Of a stretch of 36,457 nucleotides of DNA, positions 6,755-33,209 are shown piece by piece (the first letter of the stretch is position 1; the number at the start of each line of letters is the position of its first letter). The translations under genes were made by a program, and so were the position numbers. This DNA is from Sulfurimonas sp. endosymbiont of Alviniconcha boucheti (lineage in GTDB: Bacteria > Campylobacterota > Campylobacteria > Campylobacterales > Sulfurimonadaceae), in contig JAICBP010000076.1 in assembly GCA_021766785.1 (NCBI GenBank), positions 24,189 through 60,645 of the forward strand, given 5' to 3'. Under the pieces are notes generated by a model. That model made no database searches and had not been told where the DNA came from. It saw only the letters and a program-made list of their open reading frames with translations.

Positions 6755-9448
6755 CTAAAAACTAGAACTAAAATTAAACTGAAATTTAGTCCTATCTTTT
6801 ACGAAACTTGCATCATTATAAATATACTCTACATTTATAGGTATTGTAAAATTATTTATAAAAACAGTTGCAAAAGTCATTCCAGTCTTTACTTCATTTA
6901 CTCGTTCATGTACATCTTTAAAATCTGCTAAATCATAGTAACGGTATCTTGTATAAAGTGTCTCTCGTTGTAAGGAGAGGGGAAAAGTAAAAAAGTATGC
7001 TGAAAAGTTTAACACCTTTGCAAGGTTTATCCCAATATATCCTGCACTTTGAACATAACTACTGCTACTTAAACTTGCCATATTAATAACAGAAGGATCA
7101 AAATCATAAGAAGACATTGAGGAGATCTTTACTCCTCTTTTATTTATATTTGTGTCTGCATCACTTATTGAGTATTTTCCCTCTGCTCCAATATAAAATT
7201 CTCTAGGAAGATCATGCTTAGCAATTAAGTTTGTACCTACTATTTTGTCTTCTCTCTCTTGTACACCATAAAGCTGTATGCCATAGTGCTGATTTGCATA
7301 AAAACTCACACCATATTGCTCATGCTCAGAAAGTGATAATGTAACACTAAGAGGTTCCCTTGATATGGTATCATAGTCTTGATAATAACTCATATCAAGC
7401 GCACCATTCCAGTAGCCTTTTTTTAAGAATGGCACTTTTGCATTCGCCATAATACCACTATCTCGTATATCGGTTTTTGACCCCTTATCTATAACACCAT
7501 AACCAACAATACGGTAGTTAAGAAGATATTGTGCATTTGAATATCCTGCCCCAGCAACACTTATTGCATCAATATCTTTAGAAATAAAAAGATTTGCACT
7601 GTTTTGTTCAAGAGGATCTTCAAAATTTATATTTAAATTACCTATAAAATCATTCATATAAGAACCTATAGAGAATTGTGTACCACTATAATGCATATTA
7701 AAAAGAGAGTAATACTCCTCCTCTAAGTTGAACTCCTCTTCCTTTTTGATCTTTTGAGATCTCTTGTTTTTAATATATTTATTACCATAATAAGCTTTAT
7801 CTTCAAAAAAGAGTTTTGTGTTATAGGGTTGTTCCTGTTTTTGTGTCATCTCATTTATCACATAGTAGTACTCTTGAGAGCCTACTGCTGCAAGGAGAAC
7901 CTCTTTATCATTTATCACTCTTGCTTCTACAATATTATCTCCACTGCTAACTCTTGTAATAGTAGCGTTACTATAACGATAAAGTGTTGATCCTAGTTGA
8001 GAGTTCGCTACAAAGTAGATATTATCTTTAGAATCTACACCACTTACTATTCCATAAAAACCTCTGTAGGAGTAGAGTGCTGTTTTATTTTTATAAAGTG
8101 TTCTTATTTTTCCTTTTTGTTTGAAGTAATAAAGATTATCCTTTTTATCTATAAAAACCGAAGAGTTTACCTGTGAGTAAAATTTATTTCCTACATAGAG
8201 TTGTGGTTGTGAATAGGAAGAGGCGACATCAAAGTAAACTATTTGACCAGTAGAGAGATACCCCTGTATCATCTTTGAATCTGTTCCTTCTTTGATGTAG
8301 CCATTGGCATTAAAAAGTCCTTGTCTTATACGAATAGGGGAGGTGTACATACTCCCCTGTGTAAGATATTCTCCATCTACTTTTAGTACTTTTCCTGAAA
8401 GATAAGAGTCTCGATGTTTTGTTATCTTTTTTGTTTGTTTATTGAAAATTACAAGTTCTGGAGCTCTCCGTCCACTCTCATTTGTGATAAAAAAAATCTC
8501 ATTTTTTGAATTTCCTAAAGAGCTAAAAAATTGTGATTTTGCGATGATCTCACCATTAACTTCCACAAGATCTTTAGCCAGATTTTTTTCATACTTCTCA
8601 AAATCTCCAACACTATCGACAAAGGTATGTCCCACACTGTCCAACATACTTATATCTGTAAAAAGAGGGAAGATACAATCTTGAGAGTGTCTTTTAAAAT
8701 AACTATTTATTCTCTTAAGACCATAATGTTTAGCCATATATAGGTTATAAAAACCACCTTGTATATAGGCTATTTCACCATAAGGAAAGGCTAGTTTACT
8801 ATTATAAAGATATTCTGGTTTGAGTTGATTATCCTTAGCCTGTAGAAGTGTTAATGCTTTAAATCTACCACTATAAAGGCGACCTCCATTACCATGCCAG
8901 GACTCATTAAGTACTGCATTTCCCTCTAACATAAATGAATTTTCTAATAGATTTGGAATAATAAGTGGAGAGTATAAATTACCAAAGATAGCATGGAGAG
9001 ATTGAGAGATAATATCTCCTTTAACATTGAGCTGATAGTTATGTGCTGTTTCATGGTATAACAGTGTATCTAGCCATGATGTTGAAGAGAAGTAGTCCAC
9101 TAACTCTGTTCCCCCAACATAATTAATCTGCCTGTTATTAGGTATCTGTGTTGAGAAGCCGTTGGCTATTTGGTTGTTGTCTGAGATAAGTCCTACATAG
9201 AGTGTTTCATCAAGTTTCCAGTTGAAAAAGTTTTCATAATTATCATGAAGTGACTCCTCTATAGAGGCGGTTTCTTTTGCAAAAGAAAGATTATCTTTTG
9301 TATAAATAATCTCAATATTTTTGCTTTGAAGCTGATGTGTATAATAACTCTTATCATGAGGAACGATAGAGCGTCGAGTCTCTAAAGGAAGATCAAATGT
9401 AGCAAAAAGAGAAGAGATACTAAGTAGAGATAATGCAAGATATTTCAT
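6755..9448 (-). CDS. Outer-membrane protein with zinc-metallopeptidase, propeller and barrel regions
   Basis: A large (897-residue) secreted protein with a signal peptide ending near residue 16 (SISSLFA). Three regions can be seen. At 120-190, LLYHETAHNYQL gives HExxH (132-136), and 39 residues on LEGNAVLNE supplies E175, the third zinc ligand of gluzincin peptidases. Residues about 290-560 carry repeated short beta-strand units with Y/F-x-G and SKDNIYF-type segments, like a TolB/SMP-30 propeller. Residues about 580-897 consist of alternating hydrophobic strands rich in Tyr, and the protein ends in Phe (FNFSSSF), as outer-membrane barrels do. It may therefore expose or shelter a peptidase at the outer membrane. 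I know of no named family for the whole. It follows the DUF4105 gene on the same strand after 114 bases. Confidence 0.62.
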   Translation of the reverse strand: MKYLALSLLSISSLFATFDLPLETRRSIVPHDKSYYTHQLQSKNIEIIYTKDNLSFAKETASIEESLHDNYENFFNWKLDETLYVGLISDNNQIANGFSTQIPNNRQINYVGGTELVDYFSSTSWLDTLLYHETAHNYQLNVKGDIISQSLHAIFGNLYSPLIIPNLLENSFMLEGNAVLNESWHGNGGRLYSGRFKALTLLQAKDNQLKPEYLYNSKLAFPYGEIAYIQGGFYNLYMAKHYGLKRINSYFKRHSQDCIFPLFTDISMLDSVGHTFVDSVGDFEKYEKNLAKDLVEVNGEIIAKSQFFSSLGNSKNEIFFITNESGRRAPELVIFNKQTKKITKHRDSYLSGKVLKVDGEYLTQGSMYTSPIRIRQGLFNANGYIKEGTDSKMIQGYLSTGQIVYFDVASSYSQPQLYVGNKFYSQVNSSVFIDKKDNLYYFKQKGKIRTLYKNKTALYSYRGFYGIVSGVDSKDNIYFVANSQLGSTLYRYSNATITRVSSGDNIVEARVINDKEVLLAAVGSQEYYYVINEMTQKQEQPYNTKLFFEDKAYYGNKYIKNKRSQKIKKEEEFNLEEEYYSLFNMHYSGTQFSIGSYMNDFIGNLNINFEDPLEQNSANLFISKDIDAISVAGAGYSNAQYLLNYRIVGYGVIDKGSKTDIRDSGIMANAKVPFLKKGYWNGALDMSYYQDYDTISREPLSVTLSLSEHEQYGVSFYANQHYGIQLYGVQEREDKIVGTNLIAKHDLPREFYIGAEGKYSISDADTNINKRGVKISSMSSYDFDPSVINMASLSSSSYVQSAGYIGINLAKVLNFSAYFFTFPLSLQRETLYTRYRYYDLADFKDVHERVNEVKTGMTFATVFINNFTIPINVEYIYNDASFVKDRTKFQFNFSSSF

Positions 9449-9562: not shown

Positions 9563-11356
9563 CTAAAACAACTTACTAAAACCAAATTCATAATTTTGAT
9601 ACTTATCATTAGTATTCACTTGTTCAAAATTAAAATATAATTTATAATCTTTAAATAAAAATATAGTATGTTCTAATACAAATTTATCATAAATTTTATT
9701 GTCATTTACAAATAATGGTTGATAGTATAATAGACTTTTCATATTGAAGATTTCATATATCATTCCACCTATCTGTGGATTGAAAAATATATGGGCTTTA
9801 TCATCTCTATTATATCCAACTCCAAGATTTAACATTGCAAATACATTTATATCATGCCACAATAAAAAATCTATTCCTATTGCACCATCTATTTTAACAG
9901 TATCTATATACTTCATTTTTTTGCTATACTCTTTTTTGACAGCTAACTCAAATTGATAGGACAAATCATTAGTTAGTGTGTCATAGGGGATATATGACTT
10001 CATTCCATATAAAGTAAATTCTTTTAATTCTATATCATTTTTATTTGCTAAAATTGATAAATAAGCGATTTTTAATTCACTCTCTCCAAAATATTCTCTA
10101 TTATTATCATTTAATAAGTGTGAAGCTCCTAAAAATGATAATTTAAAAAACTCCTCTTCATTTATATTATTATAGCCTATGTCAATCTGTCTTTCATTTG
10201 GAATATTATTTGGAGATTTATATTCTGATATATCAAAAATAGTTCCATCATTTTTAATTGAATTATAAATACTCTTTCTAAAATTATTAAATTCATCAAT
10301 ATTGATGTCATTATTTTTATATTGCACACTACTATAAGCTTCCAATAGTTTTAAGGAGTTAAAATCTAATTTAGAAATCTTGTTATAGCTTTTATTTTCT
10401 ACAATACTTTTTATATTGTTAATCTTATAACTATCTAAACCCTCAGCTGTCATCTTTATCAACCATTCATTACTTGGAGATAATTCACTTTTTTCTATCA
10501 GATTGTATTTATAGAGTAATTTGACTATATCAAGAGGGGTTATCCATAGTTTATTATCATCATATATCTTTGGATTTGCTAATGATAATGCATAGTAAAT
10601 TACGGTTGAACAATTATAGCTTGTAAAAAAATATTTCATATCAATACCTTTTAACTCCCATATATGATAATAAATCAATTTTTTTCTATACTCTGATAAT
10701 TTTAATTGATATGCCCAAACATTTCTATTCTCTTTTTTTGTATATTGTTCAACTATTTTTTTATATGGTAGTAGTGCAAATAATCCTTTCATTCCTGAAA
10801 AAATATTTTGATATGCTAATGTTACTAAATTTGTACCATCTAATATTGTGTAGAATGTAATGGCATGTTCTACTTCTCTATTTTGATAATTTTTGCCACT
10901 ATATTTTAAAAATGTATGCCCCATCATACTTGAAGGATTTTTCACATTTTCAGAAGCATAAATTAAAGATATTTTATCAGCTGGTGCTTTCATCTTATAA
11001 GTATTAAAATTTGGACAATTTATTTTAGGAAATTCGCTATCAGATACATTTAGTTCGTGAGATATAAATAATAATCTACTTGGAAACTTACATTGTGGGT
11101 GGTTATTGATGTTATGGTAATTTTCTTGTGAAGTGTAAAAATATTTTATGGTCGTTATTAATTCATTTTTTAATGAAAAACTTTGACTTAGAATAAATTT
11201 TTTATTTTTAATATTAAAACTACCATTATAATGAAGCAGTGCTTTCCATTCATTCTTTTCATAAAGTTTTAAATTATTTGCTTTATTTAAAATTTTTTCT
11301 TGTGAAGAGTATAGAAGAATAGGAAAAAAGAAAAGAAGAAAAAATCTTCTAATCAT
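9563..11356 (-). CDS. DUF4105 (Lnb N-terminal periplasmic domain) protein
   Basis: A 597-residue exported protein whose N-terminal hydrophobic segment (residues 4-17) is followed by SSQ. The DUF4105 core spans about 85-260, with conserved cysteines at C89 and C114, MMGHTFLKYSG (H147), VEHAITFYT (H164), and TSYNCSTVIYYAL containing C249. The His and Cys spacing and the fold prediction of this family suggest a papain-like hydrolase. The name Lnb derives from its use as a fused periplasmic domain, and its substrate is unknown. The C-terminal half (about 390-597) has alternating strands and ends SKLF, like a membrane barrel. The gene starts 11 bases after the repeat lipoprotein stops, so the two form an operon. 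Confidence 0.78.
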   Translation of the reverse strand: MIRRFFLLFFFPILLYSSQEKILNKANNLKLYEKNEWKALLHYNGSFNIKNKKFILSQSFSLKNELITTIKYFYTSQENYHNINNHPQCKFPSRLLFISHELNVSDSEFPKINCPNFNTYKMKAPADKISLIYASENVKNPSSMMGHTFLKYSGKNYQNREVEHAITFYTILDGTNLVTLAYQNIFSGMKGLFALLPYKKIVEQYTKKENRNVWAYQLKLSEYRKKLIYYHIWELKGIDMKYFFTSYNCSTVIYYALSLANPKIYDDNKLWITPLDIVKLLYKYNLIEKSELSPSNEWLIKMTAEGLDSYKINNIKSIVENKSYNKISKLDFNSLKLLEAYSSVQYKNNDINIDEFNNFRKSIYNSIKNDGTIFDISEYKSPNNIPNERQIDIGYNNINEEEFFKLSFLGASHLLNDNNREYFGESELKIAYLSILANKNDIELKEFTLYGMKSYIPYDTLTNDLSYQFELAVKKEYSKKMKYIDTVKIDGAIGIDFLLWHDINVFAMLNLGVGYNRDDKAHIFFNPQIGGMIYEIFNMKSLLYYQPLFVNDNKIYDKFVLEHTIFLFKDYKLYFNFEQVNTNDKYQNYEFGFSKLF

Positions 11357-19275: not shown

Positions 19276-20505
19276 CTATTTTCCTTCCTCAACATACATT
19301 TCATAAAGATTAAGTAGCTCTAACTGTTTATCTATTTCATAGATTTGAGTATCTAACTCTTGAATTTTTAGGGAGTTGCTTAGTGTCTCTACATCATATT
19401 CTGTTTTATAACCAGCTTTAAAAAGTCTTTTTGTATCTGTTAAGAGTTTTGAGTAAAGCTCTATATTTTCTTTGCTAAGGGTTATTTTTTTATCAAAGTT
19501 TTCTATATTTTTTAGTACCTGTTCAAAAAGAGCTGTAAACTCTCTTTTTCTATCTTCTGCTACTACTCTTGCTTTTAAGAAGTCTATTTTTGCAGACTCT
19601 ATATCTCGAAAGGCATTAAAATCTAGTGGTATATTGATACGGATTCCATAGTCATAATATTGCGAATCATTTGTAGAGGTTTGAATGTTTGACTTAAATT
19701 TAAACTGCTGTTCGGAGTTATTCCAATTATATCCTGCTGTAAAACTTACACGAGGAAGATATTTTGCAATTCTTACATTTTTTGCATAAAGATTTTTTTC
19801 TATTAGAGCATCTGTCTGTTTAAGGACAATATTATGCTTTAAAAACTTTTTTGCACTGATATATTCTAAATGTGGAATAGTCGCATGCTTATAATCAAGA
19901 TCACTTAATGTTGTAAAATGATTAATAAGTCTCTCCTCTGCTGTTTGCATATCATAGAGTGCTTGAATAAGAATATTTCTTTGAATAATGGCATTATCTA
20001 AAAATCCAGAGTCAAGTTGTCCATTTAAATATTGCTCTTTTTTTTGTGCAAGATTAATTTCTGCATTTTTTATCTGTAGATTTTGTGCCTTTATGCGTAA
20101 CTCTTGTTGTTTTATCTGCATAAGCAGTGCTATAGTCTCTTTAATCATTTTGCGTCTTGCGACATCTATTGTGTAGTCAGAGTAGAGTTTGCTAGCATTT
20201 GCAAACTTAATCCCATAGTAGATACCACCACCTTGAAAAATAGGCTGATTTATACGAATAGTAGCACTTTGGCTCTTTAACTCATCATCATAAGGTTTAT
20301 TTTTTATATAGCTATAATTGAATTGTAGTGGTGCTATCCAAGAGTCACGAAGCTTTGAACTCTCTGCTTCATTTTTTTCATACTCATATCTAAACTGCTT
20401 CTGCTTTAAACCAGAGATATAAGAGTCTAAAGTATTATCCTCATTAGCATATGTTAACGTATTAAACGCGAGACATAGCAGAGTAAAGAGCTTTAAAGCC
20501 TTCAT
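19276..20505 (-). CDS. TolC-family outer-membrane channel
   Basis: A 409-residue outer-membrane efflux protein. The signal peptide (MKALKLFTLLCLAFNTLTYA) is followed by a mature protein with the long paired helices of the family (residues about 110-200 and 290-400) and strand segments such as PLQFNYSYIKN and RVSFTAGYNWN. Its start is well supported by GAGGA six bases upstream and by the signal peptide. This means its first 44 bases overlap the end of the upstream argD-type sequence in another frame. A HlyD-like adaptor is two genes upstream. No inner-membrane pump is encoded in the window. Confidence 0.86.
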   Translation of the reverse strand: MKALKLFTLLCLAFNTLTYANEDNTLDSYISGLKQKQFRYEYEKNEAESSKLRDSWIAPLQFNYSYIKNKPYDDELKSQSATIRINQPIFQGGGIYYGIKFANASKLYSDYTIDVARRKMIKETIALLMQIKQQELRIKAQNLQIKNAEINLAQKKEQYLNGQLDSGFLDNAIIQRNILIQALYDMQTAEERLINHFTTLSDLDYKHATIPHLEYISAKKFLKHNIVLKQTDALIEKNLYAKNVRIAKYLPRVSFTAGYNWNNSEQQFKFKSNIQTSTNDSQYYDYGIRINIPLDFNAFRDIESAKIDFLKARVVAEDRKREFTALFEQVLKNIENFDKKITLSKENIELYSKLLTDTKRLFKAGYKTEYDVETLSNSLKIQELDTQIYEIDKQLELLNLYEMYVEEGK

Positions 20506-23449
20506 CGATTTCCTCTTTTGTTATAGTGAGTGGTGGTAAAAATCTTAGTGTATCTCTTCCCGCTTTAAGAACCATTGCTCCACTCTCTTTGGCGTTTACT
20601 ATGATAGAAGAGAGAGTTTTTGTATCTTTAACGCGAAGTCCACACATCATACCTATACCTACTTTAGCAGTAAACTGCTCTTGATGATCTTCATAAAACT
20701 TTTCTAGTGCTTGATTAAAATAGAGAGATATTTTCTCTAGTGTACCACTCTGTTTTAACTCATTTAAAATCTCTACTACAGAGCAGACCGCTGTAGAGCT
20801 AAGATAGTTACCGCCAAAAGTAGAACCATGATCACCAGCAGAGAGTACATTTTTAAGTGAAGTCATCACAATCCCTACAGGTACACCACCTCCAATACCT
20901 TTAGCAAGGGTAATGATCTCTGGAGTTATACCATAGAGTTGCGATGCTGTAAACTCTCCAGTTCTATATCCACCAGTTTGAACTTCATCTACTATGAGAG
21001 GAATATTTTGTAATTTAAGCAGTCTCTCAAGTGCTTGTACTTGTGCTTTATCTTGAGGTTCAACACCACCTTCACCTTGAATAAGCTCTATCATAACTGC
21101 TGCGGTATGATCATCAAGAAGAGCTTCAATAGCCTCTATATTCTCTGCATAAACAAAACCATCTGGAAATGGACCGAAATAGTTATGCATCGCTTCTTGT
21201 CCAGTAGCTTTTACAGTGGTAATTGTTCTTCCATGAAAAGAGTGTTTTAGCGTGATGATTTTGTAGCGTTTGATCTCACCATCGCGTTCACCATGCTTTC
21301 TAGCAATCTTTATAGCACCTTCATTTGCTTCAGCTCCACTATTTCCAAAGAAACATGCCATATCATAGCCACTAGCTTTTGCAACTGCTTCTGCTGCTTT
21401 AGCTTGTGGTGCGATATTATAAAGGTTTGAGATGTGTGTAATATTTGATATTTGTTCACATATAGCTCTGTTTACTCTCTTGTTAGCATGTCCAACACTC
21501 ACAACCCCAATACCTGATGTAAAATCAATATACTTCTTCCCACTACTATCCGTTAAAGTCGCATTTGTTCCACTAACAAACTCAACATTATCGCGTCCAT
21601 AAGTTTGAAGTAGATACTTTTTATCTAACTCTTCTATGTTCATTATCTCTCCTCTTTGTACTCTCTCTTTTTTTGCTTGTATTGTAACTTTTTCTTCTTG
21701 ATAAACAGCACTATCTCCTTCCCAAGAAATTTCCGATGATGTCAAATTATTAACACCTTTTGTTCCACTGTATATTAAGAGTGTATCGAGTCGTAAAGTA
21801 TCTTTATGTTTTACAACAAGAGTAACACTTCCTACTGAACTACTCACTACAATACTTTCGCCCTCATTATAGCCCAAATCACTATGGATATAAACAAACG
21901 CTTCACGTTTAAACTGAGAGTTAAGACTTGTAGTACTTTTTGGTGTTATAAGGTAGAGTTCCTTACTTTTTTTTCTCTGTTTATCTCTATTTTTTGTTAG
22001 AACTATTTTATTTATAGATCTATCGATTTCTATCTCTTCAAGAAAAACAAACATATTATCATCTGTATCAAATCCATTTTTATAAGGGAGATCCTCTCTA
22101 GCACTCACAATAAGGCTTCCATCATCACTTTTATGGCTAAAACTTTTAAAATGCTCTATATACTCTTGTTCAGGTTTGAGTTGTATTTTATACTCTTTGC
22201 ATAAAAAGGATGTAAGATCATACTCACTAATTCCTATTTCACTCTCCTGTAATTTTGGCATCTCTATCATCGCATTATGCCCATAAGAGGTACGAATATC
22301 ATTTTTTTCTAAAAATGTTTTTGCTGGTATAACTAGGTCTGCTCTTTGGCTTGTAACATTTTCATAGAGTCCAAAATAAATAACATTTTGTATATGCTTC
22401 ATTGCATTGTAAGCTCTCTGTGCATTTGGCATTTGCTCTAGTGGATTTGCCCCTTGAATAAACAGAGTTTTAAACTCATTAAACTTAGTATTTACTTTTG
22501 AGACTCTTTTTGCTTCTGTTATAAAGGGTGTTGTTATTCCCTCTTTTGAGTCACCAAGATAAGCTACCCCACACCCTTCTTTGCCAAAGAGACCAAGAGT
22601 GACCACTATTGCATCTATGGCTCGGAGAATATCTGCACCATCTTTATACTTTTGAATACCTACACCACAAACAAACGCCACTCTTTTATTTTCAATATGT
22701 GCTAAAATAGTACCAACCTGACCCAGAGTCACTCCCATGTTCTCAAGCATAGATTTGATCCGAATTGTCTGAGTAAGTTCATAAAAATCTTCATATTCAT
22801 TTGCATACTTTTCTAAATACTCATAGTCACAACTACTGTTAATATGTAAAAAACGAGTTAATATCATTGCAAGATATAAGTCTGTATGTGGTTTAATCTG
22901 TAAATGAATATCTGCCATTTGTGCTATTTCTGTTTTGATAGGATCTATTACAATAATAGTTTTATTTTTTACAAGAGGCAAAAGATGACTTGAAGTTGTA
23001 TGAGGGTTGCGTCCCCAGAAGATTATGACCTCACTTTTTGCTATCTCAGAAAGAGGCATATTCTTATTGGATCCTCGTCCTTTGATAATACCAGCTTCAC
23101 CTGCTCCATCACAAAGGCTTCCGTTTGTCAAAGTTGCCCCTACTTGAGCAAAAAAATGATCAGTCACCTCTTGCATAAGTCCAAAGTTGCCACTTCCTCT
23201 ATAGAGCAGTGTCTCACTCTTATCATTTGTATCTAAAAGCTCTTTTAGTTTACTAAGAGCCTCTTGCATACTTATAGATATGCCTTTATACCTTGGTTTT
23301 GTAATGCGATCATACTCTCCAAAATGGTTCATATGTGGACATAAAAATCCCTGTGTATGTCCACTACTTTTTCCCTTTAATGCAAAATTTTTATACTCTA
23401 TTTCACAAGCATCAAAACAATCAAGAGGACATGCAGTAGTTTTACTCAT
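20462..23449 (-). CDS. argD: Molybdopterin oxidoreductase fused in frame to ArgD-type aminotransferase
   Basis: A single 995-codon frame with two complete enzymes. Residues 1-602 resemble the formate dehydrogenase/YoaE class of molybdenum-bis-MGD oxidoreductases. It has a [4Fe-4S] motif C7-x3-C11-x3-C15-x21-C37, then VIIFWGRNPHTTSSHLLP, DPIKTEIAQMADIHLQIKPHTDL and GSLCDGAGEAGI, where the Cys may ligate molybdenum. Residues 603-995 are a full-length class III aminotransferase of the acetylornithine type: FFGNSGAEANEGAIK, HSFHGRT, IVDEVQTG and PLP-lysine K850 in TLAKGIGGG. The ATG at 21641-21643 is preceded by GAGGAGA. ArgD could therefore be made from an internal start, and the joined frame may be a fusion or a lost stop. 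It overlaps the HlyD-like gene by eight bases. Confidence 0.85.
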   Translation of the reverse strand: MSKTTACPLDCFDACEIEYKNFALKGKSSGHTQGFLCPHMNHFGEYDRITKPRYKGISISMQEALSKLKELLDTNDKSETLLYRGSGNFGLMQEVTDHFFAQVGATLTNGSLCDGAGEAGIIKGRGSNKNMPLSEIAKSEVIIFWGRNPHTTSSHLLPLVKNKTIIVIDPIKTEIAQMADIHLQIKPHTDLYLAMILTRFLHINSSCDYEYLEKYANEYEDFYELTQTIRIKSMLENMGVTLGQVGTILAHIENKRVAFVCGVGIQKYKDGADILRAIDAIVVTLGLFGKEGCGVAYLGDSKEGITTPFITEAKRVSKVNTKFNEFKTLFIQGANPLEQMPNAQRAYNAMKHIQNVIYFGLYENVTSQRADLVIPAKTFLEKNDIRTSYGHNAMIEMPKLQESEIGISEYDLTSFLCKEYKIQLKPEQEYIEHFKSFSHKSDDGSLIVSAREDLPYKNGFDTDDNMFVFLEEIEIDRSINKIVLTKNRDKQRKKSKELYLITPKSTTSLNSQFKREAFVYIHSDLGYNEGESIVVSSSVGSVTLVVKHKDTLRLDTLLIYSGTKGVNNLTSSEISWEGDSAVYQEEKVTIQAKKERVQRGEIMNIEELDKKYLLQTYGRDNVEFVSGTNATLTDSSGKKYIDFTSGIGVVSVGHANKRVNRAICEQISNITHISNLYNIAPQAKAAEAVAKASGYDMACFFGNSGAEANEGAIKIARKHGERDGEIKRYKIITLKHSFHGRTITTVKATGQEAMHNYFGPFPDGFVYAENIEAIEALLDDHTAAVMIELIQGEGGVEPQDKAQVQALERLLKLQNIPLIVDEVQTGGYRTGEFTASQLYGITPEIITLAKGIGGGVPVGIVMTSLKNVLSAGDHGSTFGGNYLSSTAVCSVVEILNELKQSGTLEKISLYFNQALEKFYEDHQEQFTAKVGIGMMCGLRVKDTKTLSSIIVNAKESGAMVLKAGRDTLRFLPPLTITKEEIDEGFKALYSAMSRV

Positions 23450-26117: not shown

Positions 26118-26153
26118 AGGATAGAATACTTTTAAACACATAGGAGTTTGAAA

Positions 26154-28400
26154 ATGGCACTTGAGAGAGATATTGAAAATTTATTAGAACAGCAATTATT
26201 AAAAAATGGTTGGGAAATTAATTTTCAAAATAAAAATAAAGATGTATACCATCAAAAGACTAGAACAGAAGAAGAAAATCTAAAACTTGGTGCTTTGAAG
26301 CCTGATTTTTGTTTATATATAAATAAAACATCAAGCTACCCTGAAATTATTATTGAAACAAAAAAACCTAATATGAACTTGGCAAAAACAAAGGAACAAG
26401 CATTAAATTATGCTAAATTATTGGGGTCAAAAATTATAGTCTTATTTGATGGACTTCAAACAAAAAGTTATTGGGTAGAAAATGAAGAAAATTTATTATT
26501 AAATGGATTAGAAGTTAATACAATAAAAGATAAAGAGTTTTATAAAAAATTCATATCATTAAATTTAAATAATTATCAAGATAACAATATTATAATAAAT
26601 TCAAAAGAGGACTTAATAAATGTTTTTGCTTTTACAAACCAAAAACTAAGAAAAGCTGGAATTACAAAGGGTATGGAGAGGTTTTTTGAATTTTCCAATC
26701 TTCTGTTTTTAAAATTAATTTCTGAAGAGAATGAAATCATTTCAGAAAGTATCCCCGAATATATAAAATGGGAAAGCTACAAAAATAAAACTGGTGATGA
26801 GCTTTTAAATTACATTAATGATATAGTAATTGATAAATTGGAAACAATATTTAATAAACAAAATGAAGAGACTCTATTTACAAAACTTATTATTCAAGAT
26901 ACATTAGCTTTAAAACAAATTATTGATAAATTGGATAAATTGAATTTAAGTGGTATTAAAACTGATATAAAAGGTGATGCCTTTGAATATTTTATACAAC
27001 AGTATAATACATCTAATAATGATTTAGGTGAATATTTTACACCTAGACACATAGTAAACTTTTTAGTACAACTTGCTAATCCAAAATATGGGGAAAAAAT
27101 ATATGACCCATTTTGTGGAACAGGAGGAATATTGATTTCTGCTTTTAATCATATTCGTGATAGTTTAATTGAACAAGGATATTTAACAGATAAAGTATTG
27201 AAAGATTTAAAAGAAAATACAGTTTATGGAAGTGAAATATCATCAAATGCTAGAATTGCTAAAATGAATATGATTTTAACAGGTGATGGTCATAGCAATA
27301 TAAAACAACAAGATACACTATTACATCCTAAAAAAGAAGATTTCGATATAATTATTACCAATATTCCATTTAATTTAGAGGGTACAGCAACATCTCTATA
27401 CTCACTTTTAAATGACAATGGAAATTCTCAATCAATACAACACATAATTGATTCATTAAATAAAAAAGCTACAGCAAGAGCCTATATTATAGTTCCTGAA
27501 TCAATACTTAATAATAAAGAATTAAAAAGTCTTAGAAAATATTTAATAGATAATAATTTATTAAAACAGATTATATCTCTACCTTCAGGTGTCTTTTTGC
27601 CATATACTGAAGCAAAGGCTTCAGTATTAGTTTTACAAGGCTTAAATAATAAAGCAGTTGATACTATTAAATATACAAGAATTAAAAATGATGGTTTTAC
27701 TTTAACTCAAAGAAGAAGAAAAATTATAAATCAAGTTAATGATCTAGAAGAGTATAATTTTGATAATTCTTATGCAACTTATGAGATTAAAACAGATGAA
27801 ATTATTAATAATGATAATTACTCTTTTATATGGTTTAAATATTTTAATGAAATACCTAAAAATTATATTTTATTAAAAGACTTACTTGAGGAAGAGAGAG
27901 TAAAGAATAGTGATTTGTATGAGACCGTTACAATAACCAAACATGATTTCTATGGAATTATTAGCGGTGAAGCATATTGGGGTGATTCTTTTATGTCAGT
28001 TACATCTGAAACAAATCAAGATTATAAAGTAGTTAACAAAAAATCAATTGCATATAATCCGTCTCGTGCAAATACTGGTTCATTGGGAATTAATTTGACT
28101 AATAAACCAGTTGCAGTTAGTAAAATGTATGTTACATTTAAAGTAATAAATGATGATTTTCTACCAGAATATATATACTTATGTCTAAAAAGTCAAGAGG
28201 GAATTCAAAACATTAAGGATAGGTCTTTTGGTTCAGTAAGACAATCATTAAGATTTGATGATTTATGTACTATATCCATTCCTAATATCTCTAAAATAGA
28301 GCAACAAAAAATTATAGACAGAGCAAATAAAAAATACAAACAATATATTAAATATAAGAAGGAATTAAACCTATTTGATATGTCAGACAACAAATCGTAG
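26154..28400 (+). CDS. Single-chain nuclease-methyltransferase-specificity enzyme (Type IIG-like)
   Basis: A 748-residue protein joining three parts. Residues 1-140 resemble the HsdR N-terminal nuclease: LKPDFCLYI with D51 and EIIIETKKPN with E68-x-K70, a PD-(D/E)xK site. Residues about 150-560 are an HsdM-type N6-adenine methyltransferase: GEYFTPRHIVNFL, SAM motif I DPFCGTGGILI (318-328) and the catalytic tetrapeptide, here NIPF (403-406) in place of NPPF. Residues about 580-740 are a single HsdS-like recognition domain with a helical spacer (YIYLCLKSQEG...FGSVRQSLRFDDLCTISIP). No helicase/translocase is encoded. The ATG at 26154 has AGGAG seven bases upstream; an in-frame TTG at 26148 is too close to it. 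It was probably acquired, as it neighbours repeats and a decayed element. Confidence 0.82.
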   Translation: MALERDIENLLEQQLLKNGWEINFQNKNKDVYHQKTRTEEENLKLGALKPDFCLYINKTSSYPEIIIETKKPNMNLAKTKEQALNYAKLLGSKIIVLFDGLQTKSYWVENEENLLLNGLEVNTIKDKEFYKKFISLNLNNYQDNNIIINSKEDLINVFAFTNQKLRKAGITKGMERFFEFSNLLFLKLISEENEIISESIPEYIKWESYKNKTGDELLNYINDIVIDKLETIFNKQNEETLFTKLIIQDTLALKQIIDKLDKLNLSGIKTDIKGDAFEYFIQQYNTSNNDLGEYFTPRHIVNFLVQLANPKYGEKIYDPFCGTGGILISAFNHIRDSLIEQGYLTDKVLKDLKENTVYGSEISSNARIAKMNMILTGDGHSNIKQQDTLLHPKKEDFDIIITNIPFNLEGTATSLYSLLNDNGNSQSIQHIIDSLNKKATARAYIIVPESILNNKELKSLRKYLIDNNLLKQIISLPSGVFLPYTEAKASVLVLQGLNNKAVDTIKYTRIKNDGFTLTQRRRKIINQVNDLEEYNFDNSYATYEIKTDEIINNDNYSFIWFKYFNEIPKNYILLKDLLEEERVKNSDLYETVTITKHDFYGIISGEAYWGDSFMSVTSETNQDYKVVNKKSIAYNPSRANTGSLGINLTNKPVAVSKMYVTFKVINDDFLPEYIYLCLKSQEGIQNIKDRSFGSVRQSLRFDDLCTISIPNISKIEQQKIIDRANKKYKQYIKYKKELNLFDMSDNKS

Positions 28401-30968: not shown

Positions 30969-33209
30969 CTAAAACTTTTCTCCTAGATAAAGATAAGCAC
31001 TATGTTCTCCCCCTGCTGAAGATCCATAAGCGAGATAAAAGGGTCCCAAGAATGTATCTATAGCAAAATAGATAGAAGCTGATTTCTTTAGTTTAGCATA
31101 ATTAAAAGAAGTTCCACCATCCCATGTATCTCCTACCTCTAAAGAGAACCCTGTATAGAGTGCTGAGTCCAATGTTCCAAAAAAGCTACTTCCCTTTATT
31201 TTATAAGCATAACGAGCAACTCCCAATACTAAATTATCTCCTATTGTAGAGTATGGTGCATATCCTGAGAGATTAAAGAGACCACCTAACATAAATGTTC
31301 CAGCTAATCTTGGGATGGAGTCCATCTTATAGGTGTTTGCATATTGACCATAAAAAGTCAGACTGCCTGAATTGAAATTAAAAGGTTTTTTTACACCTAC
31401 ATAGATCTGTTCATAATCGTAATCACTTCCAAGTATAGCCATCTCTTTACTCCAACGAATTTTTCCAAAAAAGCCTTTTGTTGGAAAGTTTACGTCATCA
31501 AGTGTATCCATTTTCAATGTTATATCTAAAGGGCGTGCACTATAATCCCAATTTATACTTTGTAGTACAGCAAGAGGCTTTTTCTCTGGAATAGCTGTAG
31601 GAAAATTATTAATTATAGTACTATCTTTATAGCTAGAGAGTGATATCTCTACCTCGAAATCATTAGTGATATGTGTACCAAAAGCAAAAGTTCCTCCATA
31701 ACGCCCTATTTTTATCTCCTGATTACCATCAAGATCTTTCTCAATCAAAGATAGAGGAAATATATCATCAGTAATAACATATTTTAAAGATGGTCTTATA
31801 TAATACTTCTGGCTACTCTCTAGTGGTTGAAATAATTCGGTTCGTATTTTTTTATAATGTCCTATTTCAAAATCATTTCTCCACTCTCCACCATAGGCAT
31901 TTACTCCAAATTTTGTATATCCAAGCTTAAAGGAGTATGCAGAGTGTCCTTTGAAATCATCCTCTAGTCCTATAGAGAAACGAACTTTCCCAAGACTATC
32001 CCAGCTTGGTGTAGTTGTAATGATCAGCTCTGTTTTTTCCTCTTTTTTGCTTATTTTATAATCTACACTATCAAAGAGTGTCATATTATAAAGATAGAGA
32101 AGATCCTCTCGTAATTGTTTTAGGTCAAGTTGCTCTCCAACTTTTTGGTGGATAGAGCCTCTAATAGAACTATTTGAGAGATATGTAGAATTATGTATCA
32201 CTATTTTATCTATAATTGGTGCTTGAAATATATGCTTTGTACGATGTTTACGAACATACTTTTTATACTCTTCTTCACTAATACTTAACTTAGTAAGAGA
32301 GGAGAGTCTCTTTTTTGCAGCTTTCTCTCCAGCTAAAATGATCTCTTTATAGTGACTTGTATCTAATCCATTATATCCATTAAGATCTGGTGTTATAAAA
32401 ATATCTTTTTTAGAGTGTAAAGCAAGGGATTCTTCTACATTTTTTCGCATCATAATATCTACAAGTTGCTCTAAAACAATAAGATAGGAGTTGATTTTAC
32501 GATTTTTTTTGAAATCTTCACTTACATTGATAGCTATAATAATATCAGCACCCATATCTTTTGCGACTTGAATAGGGAGGTTATCACTCACGCCTCCATC
32601 AACCAAATCAATTCCATCAATAGTAACAGGCTCAAAACCTCCAGGAATAGCACTTGATGCATAGATAGCTTTTGCTAGATCTCCAGACTTTAGTACCACA
32701 GCATTACCATTTTTTATATCTGTAGCAATACAACGATAGGGAATACTTAGGTTATCAAAATTCTCAATATCTTGTACATTTTGTGTAAGTTGCATAAACT
32801 TTAGCATAAGAGGTTCGCGTTTAAGGATACCTGTTGGGAGGACAAAATTTCCATAAGTATTTACTCCTACTCCTACATGTCCTTGATAGATATAATCGAT
32901 CTCCTTTTTTTGCATAGGTATATCTACTCTATTAAAATTTGGTCGAATATATTTAGTCCAATCGGTACTCTCTAGCATAGTAGCTATCTCATCTGGAGAC
33001 ATTCCAGCACTATAAAGAGCTCCTACAAAAGATCCCATACTTGTACCAACTATCATATCGATAGGGATTCTATTCTCTTGCAATACTTTGAGTACACCTA
33101 CATGTGCACCACCTCTTGCACCACCACCACTAAGAACCAAAGCTATCTTTGGTCTCTCTTGAGCAAAAATAGCACTAACTATACACAATAAAAATAGTAG
33201 ATTTCTCAT
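30969..33209 (-). CDS. Patatin-like phospholipase with POTRA and outer-membrane barrel (type Vd autotransporter)
   Basis: A 746-residue protein with a signal peptide (ending IFA, residue 16) and a patatin domain at 20-310. Its oxyanion loop is GGGARGG (28-34), its nucleophile S58 is in GTSMG, and its acid D204 is in VDGGVSDN. A POTRA-like segment follows at about 330-400 (IHNSTYLSNSSIRGSI...LDLKQLREDLLYLYNMTLFDSVDYK). A 16-strand-type barrel of the BamA/surface-antigen class runs to the C-terminal YLYLGEKF. This order and size match Pseudomonas PlpD and Fusobacterium FplA, lipases that deliver their own passenger to the cell surface. It ends the cysS operon, two bases after the ferritin-like gene. 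Confidence 0.9.
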   Translation of the reverse strand: MRNLLFLLCIVSAIFAQERPKIALVLSGGGARGGAHVGVLKVLQENRIPIDMIVGTSMGSFVGALYSAGMSPDEIATMLESTDWTKYIRPNFNRVDIPMQKKEIDYIYQGHVGVGVNTYGNFVLPTGILKREPLMLKFMQLTQNVQDIENFDNLSIPYRCIATDIKNGNAVVLKSGDLAKAIYASSAIPGGFEPVTIDGIDLVDGGVSDNLPIQVAKDMGADIIIAINVSEDFKKNRKINSYLIVLEQLVDIMMRKNVEESLALHSKKDIFITPDLNGYNGLDTSHYKEIILAGEKAAKKRLSSLTKLSISEEEYKKYVRKHRTKHIFQAPIIDKIVIHNSTYLSNSSIRGSIHQKVGEQLDLKQLREDLLYLYNMTLFDSVDYKISKKEEKTELIITTTPSWDSLGKVRFSIGLEDDFKGHSAYSFKLGYTKFGVNAYGGEWRNDFEIGHYKKIRTELFQPLESSQKYYIRPSLKYVITDDIFPLSLIEKDLDGNQEIKIGRYGGTFAFGTHITNDFEVEISLSSYKDSTIINNFPTAIPEKKPLAVLQSINWDYSARPLDITLKMDTLDDVNFPTKGFFGKIRWSKEMAILGSDYDYEQIYVGVKKPFNFNSGSLTFYGQYANTYKMDSIPRLAGTFMLGGLFNLSGYAPYSTIGDNLVLGVARYAYKIKGSSFFGTLDSALYTGFSLEVGDTWDGGTSFNYAKLKKSASIYFAIDTFLGPFYLAYGSSAGGEHSAYLYLGEKF

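Follow-up and report, generated by a model that had tools for sequence, protein, structure and literature searches.

Architecture of the predicted protein

The window, by which we mean the whole 36,457-nucleotide stretch of DNA analysed here, comes from a Sulfurimonas endosymbiont of Alviniconcha boucheti whose genome comprises 2.24 Mb in 83 contigs. On its reverse strand, at 6755-9448, lies an open reading frame of 897 amino acids that starts with ATG and ends in NFSSSF (Table 1). Directly upstream on the same strand, at 9563-11356, is a gene for a protein with Lnb_N (DUF4105), DUF7843 and DUF7840 domains. An initial annotation of the 897-amino-acid protein had proposed that a gluzincin-type peptidase, a propeller-like middle and a C-terminal outer-membrane barrel share one chain, and had named the lack of a peptidase fold around residues 120-190, or of a barrel at the C-terminus, as outcomes that would speak against this. 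Both are present in an AlphaFold2 model of the whole chain, which has three domains (mean pLDDT 79.2, pTM 0.82) and supports the proposal. The details on which it was built hold as well: E175 of LEGNAV stands 39 residues past H136 of HETAH, the repeated strand units appear in the model at about residues 300-533, and the barrel has 16 strands at 586-896 and a C-terminal Phe. Ahead of these domains, the N-terminal residues read as a predicted Sec signal peptide.

Table 1. Features of the 897-amino-acid protein and its gene, in coordinates of the window
Feature	Coordinates	Strand	Evidence
Whole gene: peptidase, propeller, Omp85-like barrel	6755..9448	(-)	Open reading frame and AlphaFold2 model
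Signal-peptide-like N-terminal stretch, residues 1 to ~17: Lys, hydrophobic run, LFA	9398..9448	(-)	Sequence read-out
Gluzincin (M1-like) peptidase domain, residues 28-295	8564..9367	(-)	Models, Foldseek/VIA; profile match to relatives, E 7e-40
HETAH, residues 132-136: predicted catalytic Glu and pair of zinc-binding His	9041..9055	(-)	62/62 distinct homologues
Glu175, predicted third zinc ligand, in LEGNAV	8924..8926	(-)	62/62
Glu182, acid 7 residues after the zinc-ligand Glu	8903..8905	(-)	62/62
Tyr228 in YxxG, candidate transition-state Tyr	8765..8767	(-)	62/62
TolB-like propeller, residues 296-540	7829..8563	(-)	Model strands; TIGR02800 matches of relatives at the same place
YYFKQKGKxRTLYKN, in the propeller, most invariant stretch of alignment A1	8087..8131	(-)	Alignment
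Linker from propeller to barrel, residues 541-585 (45 residues)	7694..7828	(-)	Partly low confidence, pLDDT < 50 at 554-575
16-strand Omp85/TpsB-like barrel, residues 586-897, Phe at end	6758..7693	(-)	Model, VIA; profile link to relatives
Loop joining strands 11 and 12 (residues 763-800), the longest of the barrel, at the Omp85 L6 position	7049..7162	(-)	Model

The peptidase domain

Folded alone, the first domain gave a model (pLDDT 70.4, pTM 0.75) whose Foldseek matches, among the 50 listed, were all zinc peptidases, 49 of them M1 enzymes and one a collagenase; the best E value was only 0.0058, a weak match for a model of moderate quality (pLDDT 70). VIA aligned the domain best with the M1 enzyme IRAP (Z 11.5, rmsd 4.1, 214 residues aligned) and also with lugdulysin of family M30 (Z 10.9, rmsd 5.3, 226 aligned). 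Across the M1, M9 and M30 chains with which the model shares the gluzincin catalytic fold Z reached at most 11.5, and in helical folds a Z below about 13 can reflect a common arrangement. Because the lone-domain model matches M1 aminopeptidases, the first domain is, as modelled, a gluzincin whose fold and active site resemble those of M1 enzymes. Its sequence did not place it in the M1 family: hhalign found no sequence-level relation between the family's peptidase domain and M1 (E 0.1-0.14), and a Pfam search of the 897-amino-acid protein gave no M1 match.

Conservation of the active site was counted over 62 distinct domains of homologues (41 close, 21 distant), chosen by HMM similarity with no motif filter. 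H132, E133, H136, E175, G176, E182, Y228 and G231 are kept in every one, and N96 and R190 are each kept in 61. A separate set of 38 members had been gathered with a regular expression demanding HExxH and EG[NDS]A, which makes residue counts in that set circular for those residues; the count over the 62 repeats it without the filter. Since HETAH and Glu175 are kept in all of these motif-unfiltered homologues, their presence is not a matter of chance.

The motifs follow one another (HExxH, EG, an acid at +7, YxxG) in the order seen in M1 enzymes of the same genus. At the spacing equivalent to Glu182, one M1 peptidase encoded in the genome carries Asp, and M1 peptidases of the genus carry YEKG at a distance similar to that of the YxxG of Tyr228, a residue that we take as the candidate transition-state Tyr by analogy with M1 enzymes. 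The likeness to M1 aminopeptidases is thus one of fold and motif order, whereas the Glu that follows the second His by 19 residues in M1 follows it by 39 here, and the window protein lacks a sequence-level M1 profile match and is fused to a propeller and a barrel. Taken together, the computations show a gluzincin domain that resembles M1 and whose active site is complete and strictly conserved, with predicted zinc binding and peptidase activity.

The propeller and the barrel

In the model, region 300-533 is made up of strands only (21 listed), with pLDDT mostly about 90. The TolB propeller model TIGR02800 was matched after the peptidase domain by all eight gammaproteobacterial relatives scanned (E 3e-30 to 3e-4) and by two of nine scanned Bdellovibrionota proteins (L052 and L055); the other seven (two distant, five close relatives) had no match to it. 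These distant relatives align to the window protein's family through the peptidase domain. The family's propeller alone matched theirs weakly (E 0.003), propeller and barrel together gave a profile match of E 5e-14 over 552 columns (reversed control 0.03), and the relatives' propeller in turn matched TolB at E 1e-8. When the family propeller was aligned directly with TolB by hhalign, the match was not significant (E 0.054), likewise with 38 members.

The stretch YYFKQKGKxRTLYKN is the longest near-invariant run of alignment A1, exceeding any near the active site, and becomes looser when Bdellovibrionota members join the alignment. It is perhaps a binding face.

VIA placed the barrel nearest to CdiB (Z 20.0, rmsd 3.5, 291 aligned) and FhaC (Z 20.0, rmsd 3.1, 263 aligned), followed by BamA of F. 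johnsoniae (Z 19.6, rmsd 3.7, 289 aligned), PelB, BcsC, 4y25 and TamA (Z 17 to 19.6 for these five); classical porins, at Z 15 to 16, came below the Omp85/TpsB proteins. The profile match between the family barrel and the relatives' barrels depended on the number of sequences, improving from E 0.095 with nine members to E 4e-10 with more (reversed control 0.046). The relatives' barrels matched BamA at E 2e-7, and one relative scores 23.5 bits against PF01103, for which the cut-off is 24. Compared with BamA directly by hhalign, the family barrel gave E 0.12, no better than the reversed control at 0.06, and 38 members gave a like result. Because the direct comparisons are not significant, the links of the propeller to TolB and of the barrel to BamA rest on intermediates, and a sequence relationship of the barrel to Omp85 barrels is seen only by way of gammaproteobacterial and Bdellovibrionota proteins. 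Twelve of the 15 complete relatives carry, close to their C-terminus, the RG[FY] motif known from Omp85 loop 6; in the window protein's family, the loop at the loop-6 position holds RG[VI]K, off the aligned place of the canonical motif. The protein has no POTRA domain.

By these comparisons the 897-amino-acid protein is homologous along its length to a peptidase-propeller-Omp85 family of Gammaproteobacteria and Bdellovibrionota. Since its barrel links via relatives to BamA, and some of those relatives match TolB in the middle, we read it as a peptidase-propeller-Omp85 protein that has diverged and lacks POTRA, with an architecture close to that of the uncharacterised 'WD40-Omp85' class.

Distribution and genomic context

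Pfam and NCBIfam searches with the 897-amino-acid protein returned chance matches below cut-off only, as did Pfam searches with ten relatives. A PDB sequence search with the protein gave nothing meaningful, and tblastn of one relative against plasmids gave no match. Close full-length relatives are patchy in Campylobacterota, being present in 12 of 60 genomes among relatives when the protein was the query; in a sample of the phylum searched with a profile, 11 of 298 genomes had a match. The closest named relative, from a Sulfurimonas MAG, is 61% identical. The phylum sample around a Bdellovibrionales MAG contained 103 matching genomes out of 191; in 15 of these the match was strong (E at or below 1.7e-85) and usually spanned the full length, and in the remainder it mostly covered just the N-terminal ~300 residues. 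Within the class to which the one gammaproteobacterial MAG belongs, matches occur in 16 of 185 genomes, that MAG included. The contig of this MAG that carries the family member (L019) may be misbinned, or the family member transferred, because that member lies among the Campylobacterota sequences in a FastTree tree. Another relative (L028, G249:C1:1109654-1112314) has three in-frame TAA codons in its match and is possibly a decaying copy.

We consider the family widespread but essentially unstudied, with the window protein as a diverged member. The design had been called little described in this group; that description fits its function, but the design itself recurs in Bdellovibrionota and Gammaproteobacteria.

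Among the loci compared, many of them with short flanks, no partner gene was widely shared; one lying farther away may exist. The gene polA and two open reading frames beyond it, one FliK-like, are common to two of 27 other loci, other neighbour families found in three to five loci are short opposite-strand open reading frames or unrelated genes, and the Lnb_N/DUF4105 neighbour had no match in any of the 27. Elsewhere in the window, a 995-amino-acid open reading frame at 20462-23449 (-) is an unusual fusion that matches molybdopterin oxidoreductase in its N-terminal part and class-III aminotransferase in its C-terminal part, and an N-6 DNA methylase at 26148-28400 (+) has a weak HSDR_N-like N-terminus and is perhaps a single-chain restriction-modification enzyme. 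The same genome also has a Peptidase_M1 match at G000:C1:17598-17996 within an open frame of 3742 amino acids.

Relation to known Omp85 proteins

The WD40-Omp85 subfamily was defined by a TolB-like propeller and the lack of POTRA, and was likened to a BamA-BamB fusion (Heinz and Lithgow 2014, PMC4104836). As that paper describes it, the likeness to the window protein consists in a propeller before the Omp85 barrel, no POTRA, and a propeller nearest to TolB; a TolB-like propeller ahead of the barrel is what we find here, in the model strands and in the joint propeller and barrel profile match. The subfamily's description, on which this comparison is based, names no zinc peptidase (PMC4104836), and the window protein's family differs further in being much diverged. 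It matches no Pfam or NCBIfam model. The zinc peptidase is also a different domain from PF00149, which we take to be the metallophosphoesterase domain. PF00149 is what the 'Metallo' Omp85 subfamily is described as carrying (PMC4104836). The metalloprotease and WD40-like Omp85 subfamilies have been called not well characterised, and every Omp85 protein studied before PlpD is described as serving protein assembly or translocation (PMC11116518). Like the window protein as we read it, PlpD, a patatin-Omp85 protein, has an enzyme N-terminal to an Omp85 barrel and holds it in the periplasm (PMC11116518); unlike it, PlpD combines a patatin lipase with POTRA rather than a zinc peptidase with a propeller. 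The window itself encodes, at 30969-33209 (-), a protein of the PlpD type (patatin, POTRA and Omp85), which makes two Omp85 proteins with an enzyme in this stretch of DNA. Among open-licence PMC papers we found none that describes a chain joining a zinc peptidase to a propeller and an Omp85 barrel.

Proposed function

With moderate confidence, we propose that the 897-amino-acid protein is an outer-membrane-anchored, periplasm-facing zinc peptidase. Its Sec signal would send it to the periplasm and BAM would insert its barrel, with the peptidase and propeller remaining on the periplasmic side. In tricorn or DPP-type peptidases propellers dock or gate substrate, and the propeller here would do likewise, while the zinc site would trim peptides, or envelope proteins that have misfolded, close to the outer membrane; the barrel may be an anchor only or may also let substrate pass. 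In this the protein would resemble the periplasmic peptidase BepA, but tethered to the membrane. To our knowledge BepA is not a barrel fusion, and the comparisons made showed no homology between the two. The likeness lies in the proposed way of working, as BepA is an M48 zinc peptidase described beside the outer membrane (PMC8423444).

The Omp85 barrel could instead handle client proteins that the zinc peptidase processes or proofreads, which would make the protein a translocation or assembly factor resembling a BamA-BamB fusion with a protease added. Strict conservation of the active site fits a processing step, and Heinz and Lithgow, to whom WD40-Omp85 proteins suggest a BamA-BamB fusion, favour an assembly role (PMC4104836). 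We nevertheless hold this role to be unlikely, since the protein has neither POTRA nor a canonical L6 motif at the aligned place, no conserved neighbour offers itself as a client, and the genome has genes for BamA and a TolB-type protein at other places. The patchy occurrence among relatives suggests, moreover, that the protein is dispensable.

Orientation in the outer membrane

Connections between barrel strands fall into two kinds. After strands 2, 4, 6, 8, 10, 12 and 14 their length is nearly fixed (sd 0.0-0.2), and after strands 1, 3, 5 and so on to 15 it varies (sd 0.8-5.6), the longest loop included; these figures are for 37 family members (the 38-member set with one C-terminally cut sequence omitted), with strand positions taken from the window protein's model alone. 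In outer-membrane barrels short fixed turns face the periplasm. The fixed even-numbered turns would thus be periplasmic, and therefore so would the chain before strand 1, which holds the peptidase and the propeller. The peptidase had at first been annotated as surface-located, which is probably wrong: it precedes strand 1 of an Omp85-like barrel, the turn and loop lengths put the N-terminal side in the periplasm, and there is a parallel in PlpD, an Omp85 protein whose enzyme was formerly believed to be exported but stays periplasmic (PMC11116518).

To reach the surface, the peptidase and propeller would have to be moved outside by the barrel, or by the BAM complex during assembly, as was once proposed for PlpD. 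The top barrel matches, FhaC and CdiB, are Omp85/TpsB relatives that export proteins, and the partly low-confidence linker ahead of strand 1 could in principle thread a barrel. Such active threading would, however, be a necessity, the turn and loop pattern points the other way, and the surface model of PlpD was contradicted by experiment (PMC11116518). On balance, we regard a surface location as rather improbable.

Implications for the family

A non-peptidase hydrolase on an M1-like scaffold is very improbable, for most enzymes of the M1-like and other gluzincin kinds are peptidases; even so, fold and active site alone do not fix substrate, and the Foldseek matches include LTA4H, an M1 member that also opens an epoxide. 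We suggest, tentatively and with some doubt, that the propeller-Omp85 class as a whole consists of outer-membrane-anchored zinc peptidases and not of BamA-BamB-like assembly factors. It would form a separate envelope-protease system, in which the Omp85 barrel has turned anchor, or has become an entry port with incoming peptides trimmed by the propeller-gated peptidase beneath. A strictly kept zinc-peptidase site on a POTRA-less Omp85 barrel gives this uncharacterised propeller class a testable enzymatic role. It would be a second case, beside PlpD, in which an Omp85 scaffold has come to hold a periplasmic enzyme, and would offer an outer-membrane-bound protease for study in Campylobacterota, Bdellovibrionota and Gammaproteobacteria.
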